Shown here in pieces: positions 12,101-15,789 of a stretch of 51,827 bases of DNA; the first letter of the stretch is position 1, and every line of letters begins with the position of its first letter. The notes beneath the pieces were generated by a model. That model ran no database searches, was not told the DNA's origin, and worked only from the letters and a program-made list of their open reading frames with translations. A program made the translations under genes and the position numbers. The stretch is from Candidatus Poribacteria bacterium (GTDB lineage: Bacteria; Poribacteria; WGA-4E; PCPOR2b). Where the stretch lies: the NCBI GenBank assembly GCA_022822005.1, contig JAJECO010000069.1, forward strand, positions 1 through 51,827, in the 5' to 3' direction.

Positions 12101-15100
12101 TTATTTTTCTACCTGCTTCACACCAATCGTTGCATCTTCCCCGTTCACCTTCTGTGACTTCAGAAAAGCGTCTGGGCTTAATGATTCGACCACATGCAGC
12201 GTCAAGGTCTCGTGTGTGATGTAGTCGCGGTGGCGATCAAACGCTTCGTGGACAATCGGCGTCGACTCCAAACTGAGCGAGATCCGGTCAGACACATTGA
12301 AATCCGCTTCCTTACGAATCTGCTGAATCTTGTTGACCAACTCCCGCGCGAAACCTTCGAGGATGAGTTCGTGTGTCAGTTCTGTTGAGAGAGCGACAAA
12401 CTTGTGGGCGTCTGCTTCGACGGCATACCCCCCCCGATTCTCCGACTGCACATCAACCTCTGCCCTCTCTAGGGTGTAACTCACACCGTCCGCCTGAATC
12501 TCTAATTCACCATTTCCATCAAGTTCCTGTTTGAGGGTGAGCGCATCAGCCGATGCCATTGCCTTCGCAATTGCTTGGACATTCTTTCCGTATTTCGGAC
12601 CTAGCAGCTTGAAATTCGGCTTGATTGTGTAACTTGCAAACTCGTCAATCCCCTCGTGGTAAGAGATCTCCTTGACATTTAATTCGTCCAAAACAAGTGC
12701 GGACAGACGATTGACGGCAGCCTGTTGCTTTTCGGATATACCACCAATCCCGATGCGCCCAATCGGTTGCCGCGTTTTGATCCCCGACTGATTCCGAGCA
12801 GCACGTCCCAAACCGATGAGGTCTCGTGCGAGACGCATGTCATCTTCCAGTGAAATGTCAACGAGTTCCTCATCCACAGTGGGGTAATCGGAGAGATGGA
12901 CGCTTTCAGGGGCATCTGGATCCACCGAACCCACCAAGTTCTGGAAGATTGACTCCGTAACGAAGGGGATAAACGGTGCGAGCAGACGACTGGTCGTCAC
13001 CATCACTTGATACAGGGTCTGATAGGCGGCTTCCTTATCGGTATCCGCTTCTGACTTCCAAAAACGACGACGACTTCGCCGCAGATACCAGTTCGACAGG
13101 TCATCCAGAAAATCCTCAACGACACGGCAGGCACCATCCGGGGAATATTCGTCCAGACGTTCCATTACCGAGCGAACCGTGCTTTGCAGACGGGATAAAA
13201 TCCACCGGTCAAGAAGATTTTCAGACGCTTCCGGCTTTTCCTTCCAGAGCCCTGTGGACGGCTGCCAACCATCAAGGTTTGCATAGGTAGCGAGGAAGCT
13301 ATACACATTCCAGAACGGAATGAGGACTTGGCGTCGAACCTCATCCGAATGGCTGTAACCGAAAAGTAGATTCTGTTCCGGTTTCGCGGCGGAGTACATC
13401 CAGCGCATCACATCCACGCCCATCGATTCGGCAGCGTCGTCGAACCAGATAGCGTTTCCCCAAGATTTGTGCATTGCCCGTCCGTCTTCCGCAAACAGTG
13501 TCGCATAGCTGAAGTTGTGCTTAAACGGGGCACGGCGCTCCATTACCGTGCTCATCGCTATCAGTGAATAGAACCAGTTCCGAAATTGTCCGGGGAAGCT
13601 TTCGCTAATCAGATCAGCGGGGAACCATTGGCTCCAGTAGTCGCGGTCGGTGCGATACTGCATTGTGCTAAAGCTGACAATACCTGCATCCAACCACGGA
13701 TTCCCAACGTCCGGGATGCGCGAAGCAGCCGCACCGCAACTTGGACAGGCAATTTTCACCGCATCAATCCACGGACGATGTGGTGTATGCCCCTCAAACT
13801 CATCCCAGCCCTCGACAGCAAGTTCCTCTAATTCCTCAAGGCTCCCGACAACATGAAAATGGTCGCACTCGTCGCATTCGTAGATGGGGAGTGCCAAGCC
13901 CCAGTAGCGTTTCTTCGATATCATCCAATCGTGCATGTTGCGCAGCCAGTCGAGTTCGCGGGCAAGCCCGAAGGAAGGATACCACTTGGTGTCATTGTGG
14001 ACAACCTCCATCATCTGGTAGCGCAGATTCTGTTCCTTCTCTTCTTCCGTTACTTGCTCGTAAGGTTTATCAAGCTGCTCACCCATTGAAATGAACCATT
14101 CATCCACAAGACGGAAAACCAGTTCCTCTTCGCAGCGCCAACACACCGGGTAGCGGTGGGTGTAGTCTTCGAGGCGATAGACAATCCCTTTCTCCTTCAG
14201 ATTTTCAAAGATGTCCTCCGCAACGGTGTGGACTTGACGACCTGTCAGCCAATCAAATCCGTCGAGATAGATCCCCTCTGCTCCAAGCGGCGCGATAACA
14301 GGAATGCCTTGTTCTTTGCTCAACTCAAAGTCCTCTGCACCGCAGCCGGGCGCGGTGTGGACAATCCCCGTACCTTCCGCCTCACCGACCTCGTCCCACA
14401 GAATAATGCGGTGCCCTTCAGCGGCCCCGGAGGTCTGTTGGGCTGGCAGTTCATCGAAGGGACCATCATAAGCCCAACCTTCCAATTCACCGCCCGACTT
14501 CTCCTCCAGAGTCTTATAATCGCCCCGGATGGCGTTTTCCAGTGCACCCTTGCTCAACCAGAAACGATGCTCGTCCTGCTCCACCAACACGTAGGTAAGG
14601 TCTGGGTGGACTGCCGCTGCCACGTTGCTTGTCAGCGTCCACGGCGTCGTCGTCCAGACCAGTAGACTCTCGCCGGGACGGTCGCGCAGCGGGAAGCGGA
14701 GGAAAATACTGGTATGCGTCAGCTCTCGGTAGCCGTCGGTGACAATCTCGTGCTGGCTGATGCCGGTATCACACCGCGAACACCACGGCATTACATCGGT
14801 GCCCTTATAGATCCAGCCGCGATCAAAACACTTCTTCAGCATTGTCCAAATCGTGTAGTTGTTTTCATTGGAGAATGTGAAATAAGACCCACCCAACTCC
14901 GGTAATCCGAGCCTTCCGACAAGTTGCTCAACCGTATCCGTAACGGGACCATTTGGACCCTCTACAGTGAGGGTCTGTGAAGGATCTTCTTCCATTTTTT
15001 TCTCCAACTCGCGCAGGAGATTTGGATCGTTCCAGTCCATCCAGTAGCCGAGCCGTACAGACTGTTCTGTCTGTGTTGCTGCATGCCTTAGCACCTGTCG

Positions 15101-15463
15101 TTTGCAAGCGTTCACAAACTTATCCAAGCCGTAGGATTCAATGTCCTTTTTTGCCTTAAAACCCATGTCGCGCTCGACATTGACCTCAATCCAGAGCCCT
15201 TGGCAGTCAAACCCGTTCTGGTATCGCGTCTGATAGCCTTGCATGGCTTTGAATCGTTGGAAGAGGTCCTTGTAGGTCCGTCCCCATGCGTGATGAACAC
15301 CCATCGGGTTGTTGGCGGTGATGGGTCCATCAATGAAACTCCAGCGTGGTGCATCCTGCCGCTGCTCTCGAAGTTTGTGGAAGACCTCGCTGTCGCGCCA
15401 GAAATCTAAAATTTGATGTTCTTGGGCGACGAAGTCTATAGTATTGGGTACATCTTTAAACAT
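12101..15463 (-). CDS. ileS: Isoleucyl-tRNA synthetase with swapped HIGH motif
   Basis: A class I synthetase of 1120 residues that charges tRNA-Ile. The sequence fits type-2 (eukaryote-like) IleRS: N-terminal catalytic segment, CP1 editing domain with LLVWTTTPWTLTSN (267-280) and GTGIVHTAPGCG (364-375), and a C-terminal anticodon-binding region. Two features are unusual. The HIGH signature reads GVHH (55-58, in NPMGVHHAWG), so the first and third residues are exchanged. The KMSKS loop reads AMHKS (663-667), keeping the second Lys. Cys pairs at 228/231, 441/444, 530/533 and 573/576 could bind zinc. ATG at 15463 has AGGAG upstream. The gene is preceded by an Ile-codon leader and attenuator and followed by an intrinsic terminator. 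Confidence 0.95.
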   Translation of the reverse strand: MFKDVPNTIDFVAQEHQILDFWRDSEVFHKLREQRQDAPRWSFIDGPITANNPMGVHHAWGRTYKDLFQRFKAMQGYQTRYQNGFDCQGLWIEVNVERDMGFKAKKDIESYGLDKFVNACKRQVLRHAATQTEQSVRLGYWMDWNDPNLLRELEKKMEEDPSQTLTVEGPNGPVTDTVEQLVGRLGLPELGGSYFTFSNENNYTIWTMLKKCFDRGWIYKGTDVMPWCSRCDTGISQHEIVTDGYRELTHTSIFLRFPLRDRPGESLLVWTTTPWTLTSNVAAAVHPDLTYVLVEQDEHRFWLSKGALENAIRGDYKTLEEKSGGELEGWAYDGPFDELPAQQTSGAAEGHRIILWDEVGEAEGTGIVHTAPGCGAEDFELSKEQGIPVIAPLGAEGIYLDGFDWLTGRQVHTVAEDIFENLKEKGIVYRLEDYTHRYPVCWRCEEELVFRLVDEWFISMGEQLDKPYEQVTEEEKEQNLRYQMMEVVHNDTKWYPSFGLARELDWLRNMHDWMISKKRYWGLALPIYECDECDHFHVVGSLEELEELAVEGWDEFEGHTPHRPWIDAVKIACPSCGAAASRIPDVGNPWLDAGIVSFSTMQYRTDRDYWSQWFPADLISESFPGQFRNWFYSLIAMSTVMERRAPFKHNFSYATLFAEDGRAMHKSWGNAIWFDDAAESMGVDVMRWMYSAAKPEQNLLFGYSHSDEVRRQVLIPFWNVYSFLATYANLDGWQPSTGLWKEKPEASENLLDRWILSRLQSTVRSVMERLDEYSPDGACRVVEDFLDDLSNWYLRRSRRRFWKSEADTDKEAAYQTLYQVMVTTSRLLAPFIPFVTESIFQNLVGSVDPDAPESVHLSDYPTVDEELVDISLEDDMRLARDLIGLGRAARNQSGIKTRQPIGRIGIGGISEKQQAAVNRLSALVLDELNVKEISYHEGIDEFASYTIKPNFKLLGPKYGKNVQAIAKAMASADALTLKQELDGNGELEIQADGVSYTLERAEVDVQSENRGGYAVEADAHKFVALSTELTHELILEGFARELVNKIQQIRKEADFNVSDRISLSLESTPIVHEAFDRHRDYITHETLTLHVVESLSPDAFLKSQKVNGEDATIGVKQVEK

Positions 15464-15521: not shown

Positions 15522-15559
15522 AAAAAAGCCCACCACCGAAATCGTTTCCGATGATGGGC
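15522..15559 (-). terminator. Attenuator terminator in the ileS leader
   Basis: On the minus strand GCCCATCATCG (15559-15549) pairs with CGGTGGTGGGC (15538-15528). This gives 11 continuous pairs (two G-U) with a 10-base loop, and TTTTTT follows at 15527-15522. It lies about 60 bases before the ileS start, after the leader peptide stop, so it would end transcription before ileS unless the 5' arm is captured by the antiterminator segment at 15608-15617. Confidence 0.88.
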
Positions 15560-15590
15560 GTTTGTATTGTTATGACTGCTGTGATCGAGT

Positions 15591-15719
15591 TTACGTCGTT
15601 TGCATCAGCCCACCATCGCGAGACGGAATAATAATAATAGAAATAATCCCAATAGAAAGACGTATATTTTGACTTTCAGTCTCGCGTGTTGATCTGTGGG
15701 GTGATGGTGAGTATGACAC
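15591..15719 (-). CDS. Isoleucine-rich leader peptide controlling ileS
   Basis: A 42-codon open frame starts at GTG 15719 and stops at TAA 15593-15591. AAGGAG lies 9 bases upstream (15734-15729), and a promoter sits 42 bases before the GTG. The striking part is codons 23-31 (15653-15627), which read Ile-Gly-Ile-Ile-Ser-Ile-Ile-Ile-Ile, with all seven Ile as ATT; another Ile (ATA) is codon 19. The first 22 codons are ordinary and polar. The peptide itself probably has no function; its translation reports isoleucyl-tRNA supply. Pairing segments flank the Ile run: CGCGAGAC at 15686-15679 before it and GTCTCGCG at 15624-15617 after it. No homologue is recognised; the call rests on layout. Confidence 0.85.
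   Translation of the reverse strand: MSYSPSPHRSTRETESQNIRLSIGIISIIIIPSRDGGLMQTT
15608..15709 (-). promoter_or_regulatory. Antiterminator and 1:2 stem segments of the ileS attenuator
   Basis: Segment 1 has CACCATC (15709-15703) and CGCGAGAC (15686-15679). Segment 2 has GTCTCGCG (15624-15617) joined to GATGGTGGGC (15617-15608). They can pair in nested fashion, with the Ile codons in the loop. GATGGTGGGC can instead pair with the terminator 5' arm GCCCATCATC (15559-15550), 10 pairs with one G-U, forming an antiterminator. The stems are therefore mutually exclusive in the classical 1:2, 2:3, 3:4 way. Confidence 0.75.
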
Positions 15720-15760
15720 GGTGTAAATCTCCTTATTTGATAATTATCCGACACAGAAAT

Positions 15761-15789
15761 ATGGTAACAGACGTTTGCAGGGATGTCAA
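15761..15789 (-). promoter_or_regulatory. Promoter of the ileS leader transcript
   Basis: On the minus strand a perfect TTGACA (15789-15784) and TACCAT (15766-15761) are separated by 17 bases. Transcription would start near 15754, about 20 bases before the leader peptide ribosome site. Confidence 0.75.

Follow-up and report, generated by a model that had tools for sequence, protein, structure and literature searches.

Why should the gene for isoleucyl-tRNA synthetase be preceded by a short reading frame crowded with isoleucine codons? The question is raised by the window, as we call the whole stretch of Candidatus Poribacteria DNA that was analysed (51,827 nt). On its minus strand, as all features given here, ileS (12101-15463) encodes an isoleucyl-tRNA synthetase (IleRS) of 1120 amino acids, identified by TIGR00392 (698 bits against a cut-off of 621). 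A sequence-only reading of the region upstream had proposed that a translated leader controls this gene by attenuation.

The arrangement of the leader is confirmed to the base, from promoter and ribosome site through the leader frame and T6 to ileS. A sigma-70-type promoter (15761-15789) consists of TTGACA (15789-15784), a 17-nt spacer and, preceded by TG, TACCAT (15766-15761), so that 10 of 12 hexamer positions match; a TTGACAT-type -35 plus a -10 is also present upstream of most relatives' leaders. The Shine-Dalgarno sequence AAGGAG (15729-15734) is followed by a leader ORF (15591-15719) that begins with GTG (15719-15717), runs for 42 sense codons, MSYSPSPHRSTRETESQNIRLSIGIISIIIIPSRDGGLMQTT, and stops at TAA (15593-15591). 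With its start codon and Shine-Dalgarno sequence, this short ORF between promoter and terminator is putatively translated, and homologous leaders occur in relatives. Codons 23-31 (15627-15653) read I G I I S I I I I, that is, seven ATT codons in nine as had been noticed, and an eighth Ile codon (ATA) is codon 19.

Four segments around and behind these codons can pair in alternative ways. Segment 2 (GTCTCGCGATGGTGGGC, 15608-15624) overlaps the 3' part of the leader ORF. Segment 3 (GCCCATCATCG, 15549-15559) is common to an antiterminator with segment 2 and a terminator with segment 4 (CGGTGGTGGGC, 15528-15538). Segment 1 comes from the predicted fold of the window: its first part, CACCATC (15703-15709), could pair with GATGGTG of segment 2, and its second part, CGCGAGAC (15679-15686), with GTCTCGCG. 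Segment 2, both parts of segment 1 and the 5' arm of the terminator lie where the sequence-only reading had put them. It was also right about a hairpin tailed by six T residues (15522-15527), although the whole terminator stem (15559-15528) has 14 bp rather than the 11 pairs claimed. This intrinsic terminator precedes the structural gene, with 58 nt from the end of T6 to the ileS ATG (15463) and an AGGAG in between (15474-15470) as the Shine-Dalgarno sequence of ileS.

We infer from this anatomy how transcription would start and end, where the ribosome would stall and how the ileS leader would respond to Ile-tRNA. RNA polymerase would start near 15753, followed by a ribosome that translates the leader ORF. 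Given ample charged tRNA-Ile, this ribosome would pass the ATT codons, reach the stop codon and cover segment 2; segment 3 would then pair with segment 4, and transcription would end at T6. When charged tRNA-Ile is scarce, either from lack of isoleucine or from too little IleRS, the ribosome would stall on the ATT run before segment 2, which could then pair with segment 3 ahead of the synthesis of segment 4, so that transcription would continue into ileS. If the leader is not translated, segment 1 could capture segment 2, which would favor termination.

Folding computations agree with the expectation that stalling on Ile codons lets the antiterminator form. In masked folding of the window transcript as far as the start of segment 4, the predicted probability of 2:3 pairing is 0.98-0.99 when the A site holds Ile codon 29 or 30, 0.69 when it holds Ile codon 31, 0.36 without a ribosome and 0.008 with the ribosome on the stop codon. 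If the ribosome stalls early in the Ile run, 1:2 can still form in these folds (P(2:3) 0.35-0.47), and the codons at the end of the run should therefore carry the most weight. The final Ile codon of most ileS leaders begins 9-13 nt ahead of segment 2, and a ribosome stalled there therefore reaches the edge of that segment. Across 81 leaders, the median predicted P(2:3) is 0.42 averaged over cognate codons versus 0.00 at the stop. Ribosome position is thus predicted to decide the pairing in the window and in most of the 81, and several paralogues of the element, such as the aroG copy in the window's own genome (L191), have no stalled/stop contrast. In the full-length window transcript the terminator prevails whatever the ribosome state (0.999), which means that the switch has to be decided kinetically.

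The sequence-only reading would have been contradicted by relatives lacking Ile enrichment or pairing upstream of ileS. Instead, Ile-rich leaders with alternative 2:3 and 3:4 helices precede ileS in eight Poribacteria families (f1, f2, f3, f4, f5, f7, f8 and f10), one of which, f10, belongs to another class of the phylum than the window's, and their sequences diverge. Within the same genus the N-terminal half of the leader varies, and LSIG-I/T-ISIII and the hairpins are kept. In f3, whose IleRS shares only some 42% identity with that of the window, most leaders end in (I)3-4 A I R R A V V G and a stop, followed by segment 2 (GTGGTGGGC), segment 3 (GCCCATCAC) and the terminator; differences in the length of the Ile run within this family amount to whole codons. 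The leaders of f4 (MLTITVIISSVLISIIILIDGGQKA), f8 (..LLGIIIGLLRAGGG..) and f10 (..LNDDIIIIRLLQTMVG..) extend the series. A covariance model, R1, was trained on 25 leaders and detects the element in 61 of 85 Poribacteria genomes, a sample made up mostly of metagenome assemblies.

The cognate codons are conserved along with the structure. Across 46 ileS leaders, isoleucine accounts for 28% of the last 15 codons ahead of segment 2, and the 22 non-redundant leaders hold 69 Ile, a count reached by 16 of 100,000 samples. The Ile run is weak in the ileS leaders of G009, G030 and G069, those of G061 and G062 are aromatic-rich, and that of G014 is out of frame and looks frame-shifted. The leader is lost in G001 (L005/L033) and G046 (L115), where the promoter is followed almost directly by ileS, and the terminator alone remains in G006 (L111); these three are natural deletions of the attenuator. 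An IleRS of this type was not found in G005, G007 and G071, where the best matches resemble other class-I synthetases; either these assemblies lack the gene or a different type has taken its place.

Both alternative helices covary. RNAalifold, given 25 leaders, chooses the 2:3 antiterminator. Among 23 diverse cores upstream of ileS, DAHP synthase and tyrS genes, 97.2% of the 2:3 positions and 95.2% of the 3:4 positions are paired, compared to 27-63% when the partners are slid by 1-3 columns, and two-sided changes occur at three pairs of 2:3 and five pairs of 3:4. Segment 3 is constrained by two partners, and changes can be followed through all three strands, as in CAATGG / CATTG / CAATG of G060 versus CGATGG / CATCG / CGGTG of the window's own genome (G000). 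Since relatedness alone can exceed a shuffle control, our case for covariation is built on the slid control and the triple changes. Of the proposed 1:2, 2:3 and 3:4 logic, then, the last two helices recur in relatives with covariation, and the first is a candidate anti-antiterminator predicted in the fold of the window.

The element is not confined to ileS. Its core terminator occurs in zero to two copies in each of 14 genomes, and the core copies away from ileS lie before DAHP synthase or tyrS genes and have Tyr-rich leaders. The window's own genome has such a second core (L191, G000:C58:113958-114065; site 114025) before a class-I aroFGH-type DAHP synthase gene, with a Tyr/Phe/Leu-rich (TLYFFYLYLFLLYL) leader, MKSVYLQPYIANQTTLYFFYLYLFLLYLRCDGGRVDPASKM. 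A second covariance model, R2, was made from the 2-3-4 core of 23 cores from ileS, DAHP-synthase and tyrS leaders, and gene identities at its sites were checked with NCBIfam on representatives. Outside the training set, R2 finds leuS with leaders LALRLRLLGLLRLKS, DVVLVRLRLALAVLS and TLLDLVLLRLRGLVG, citramalate synthase with AVIAIIIIIRIAAPC and YTGLIISLIILLLLY, tyrS with PYFYYTYQYVYSLLS and RSNFYYYYCG, an f3 DAHP synthase with LGLYLYLYLYLYSYA and argD with ISFIRVRRSRSG. The argD case (L300, G008:C692:49455-49561), which combines an Arg-rich leader, RISQISFIRVRRSRSG, with a terminator, is the only Arg case seen.

The leader codons match the gene that follows: Leu for leuS, Tyr for tyrS and the DAHP synthases, Ile for citramalate synthase and Arg for argD. 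In a set of 49 leaders, from which near-duplicates were removed and in which frames were picked blind to residue type, 172 residues are cognate versus 86.6 +/- 13.0 with gene labels shuffled (0 of 200,000 shuffles as high), a figure that is optimistic because it treats the leaders as independent; the match itself is repeated over several gene types and families. For L024 and L027 the automatic choice settled on a different frame, and for L025 and L128 it gave no leader. Since misread rows were kept, the statistics are conservative in this respect.

Searches around these cases mark the reach of the family. With neither a cognate leader nor a cognate gene, the weak R2 matches L301, L302 and L313 are attributed to chance. 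Among 30 genomes found by way of Chloroflexi-type ileS loci, R2 gives no credible match; its one weak match (E 0.0015) is a plain terminator that follows another gene. A His run was not found before hisS in G014 (L315), nor a terminator in the valS upstream regions of nine genomes, nor a cognate leader with terminator within 420 nt of tyrS or trpS beyond the listed cases. At leuS in the window's own genome (L295) the terminator is kept and the leader is degenerate. For the weakest paralogues (citramalate synthase, argD and f3 DAHP synthase), the resemblance could have arisen by convergence, the hairpin being simple.

Three side observations concern other genes. A conserved terminator of the CGCCTGTCACTTTC..GTGATAGGCG type lies just upstream of pheS in f1 and f2 (L325-L328, L332-L334), where a Phe-rich ORF was not found. 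Upstream of trpS in L244 (G009) and L247 (G012), an unrelated terminator (AAGCCGCAGGTA..TACC.GCGGCTT, with a T tract) comes after a short frame in which Trp is encoded twice (AVWRCDWRIE / AEWRCDWRIE), possibly a Trp attenuator of trpS. In genus g8 of f3 (L161-L175), a related core with a leader (..LGVVLIGISMCRAVVG..) that has no single-residue run precedes a gene with DUF5916 and CBM9_1 domains (Pfam), and perhaps the ileS attenuator was copied to this unrelated gene.

The make-up of the leader and its recurrence in relatives, together with the covariation of both alternative helices and with leader codons that fit the gene downstream in related switches, make us confident that the element is a ribosome-mediated transcription attenuator of ileS that would respond to charged tRNA-Ile. 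The strongest competitor, which we nonetheless consider improbable, is that the leader ORF senses a general slowing of translation, for example by ribosome-targeting drugs, or controls translation of ileS, and that the Ile codons only tune it. Drug-sensing uORF attenuators do exist, such as that of bmrCD (PMC4191407), and some ileS leaders have few Ile codons. However, the leader amino acid tracks the downstream gene across seven gene types, which speaks against a general sensor, and control of translation does not fit a classical terminator with a T tract that leaves the ileS Shine-Dalgarno sequence uninvolved.

A T-box, or another riboswitch that binds tRNA or a metabolite with the short ORF as an incidental feature, deserves mention because ileS is commonly a T-box gene. 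The T-box family RF00230 lies upstream of ileS at 8 of 20 Anaerolineae/Chloroflexi loci (L043, L070, L089, L062, L040, L100, L039 and L048), those with the closest IleRS, and ileS is reported with T-boxes in Actinobacteria (PMC1262725). Nevertheless, this explanation is very unlikely for the window, which at the gathering score matches no Rfam family, including RF00230 and the amino-acid leader families. Furthermore, the conserved trait is codon identity matched to the gene, and not a T-box bulge or specifier loop. That an ordinary terminator happens to stand behind a random ATT-rich stretch is just as hard to credit: slippage can create ATT tracts and two relatives keep ileS without the leader, but in 5000 dinucleotide shuffles a run of 7 Ile in 9 codons in any frame of the region came up once, such a run occurs only at the leader among 103,602 nine-codon windows on either strand of the contig, the leader folds with z = -3.64 (0 of 200 shuffles as good), the reversed core pattern occurs 0 times in the 14 genomes, where inspected sites of the core precede ileS, tyrS or DAHP-synthase genes, and conservation across the phylum with compensatory changes makes a chance origin untenable.

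The attenuator may have a history apart from that of the enzyme. The IleRS of f1, f2 and f8 (L001-L008, L202) groups with Chloroflexi, at up to 64% identity in an outside sample made up of matches of the f1 query only, and shares 36-42% identity with the IleRS of all other sampled Poribacteria; the leader looks alike in both sets. From the sequences, the IleRS gene was likely exchanged under a retained switch, or the switch was re-attached. On balance we favor a broader model, in which one homologous switch module was copied before many Poribacteria amino-acid genes and re-tuned by exchange of its control codons (Ile for ileS and citramalate synthase, Leu for leuS, Tyr for tyrS and two kinds of DAHP synthase, Arg for argD), as a ribosome-read counterpart of the T-box regulon. 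In this model the ileS switch persisted, or was re-attached, when f1, f2 and f8 took on the Chloroflexi-like IleRS.

Since related switches with swapped codons stand before the matching genes across the phylum, leader-peptide attenuation seems to be the way in which Poribacteria sense amino-acid shortage, a task that falls to T-boxes in other phyla. Leader-peptide attenuation is known mainly from Proteobacteria and later from Actinobacteria and a few Firmicutes, mostly for biosynthetic operons. If our model is right, it covers synthetase as well as biosynthesis genes across an uncultured phylum and does the work of T-boxes there. The intact, codon-swapped, degenerate and deleted leaders would form a natural series for the origin, movement and re-tuning of a switch, and the leader codons would tell which amino acids Poribacteria regulate. 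A covariance model is now available for an element family absent from Rfam.

The classical attenuators of amino-acid operons (trp, his, leu, ilv, thr and pheA) and of pheST in gamma-proteobacteria combine a short, codon-rich ORF with 1:2, 2:3 and 3:4 pairing and an intrinsic terminator. The Poribacteria element shares the codon-rich short ORF, the alternative 2:3 and 3:4 pairing and the terminator before the gene, but it belongs to another phylum, targets ileS, places segment 2 within the ORF's 3' end or right at it and has a recognizable 2-3-4 core common to switches for different amino acids. The principle itself is classical, as summarized in PMC2659441. As far as the papers searched show, what is new is the ileS target, the phylum and the codon-swapped family: the open-licence literature yielded no paper on attenuators in Poribacteria, in keeping with the sequence-only reading, which knew of no description for this lineage, and the titles, abstracts and passages found there name no ileS leader peptide.

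Synthetase genes under leader-peptide control have precedents in the predicted attenuators of Streptomyces trpS and leuS (PMC1262725) and in the His leader peptide upstream of hisS*/hisZ of bacilli (PMC2965389). These are isolated cases in Actinobacteria and Firmicutes and do not include ileS, for which PMC1262725 reports (translational) T-boxes in Actinobacteria. The T-box RF00230 is alike in that it serves the same kinds of target genes and that a codon sets the amino acid sensed by a common switch. However, a T-box binds tRNA directly, whereas in the Poribacteria leader a translating ribosome would read the tRNA. With a translatable short ORF, cognate codons conserved in relatives, a terminator before the structural gene and a predicted antiterminator that excludes it, the ileS element works like a leader-peptide attenuator and, by these testable criteria, is one.
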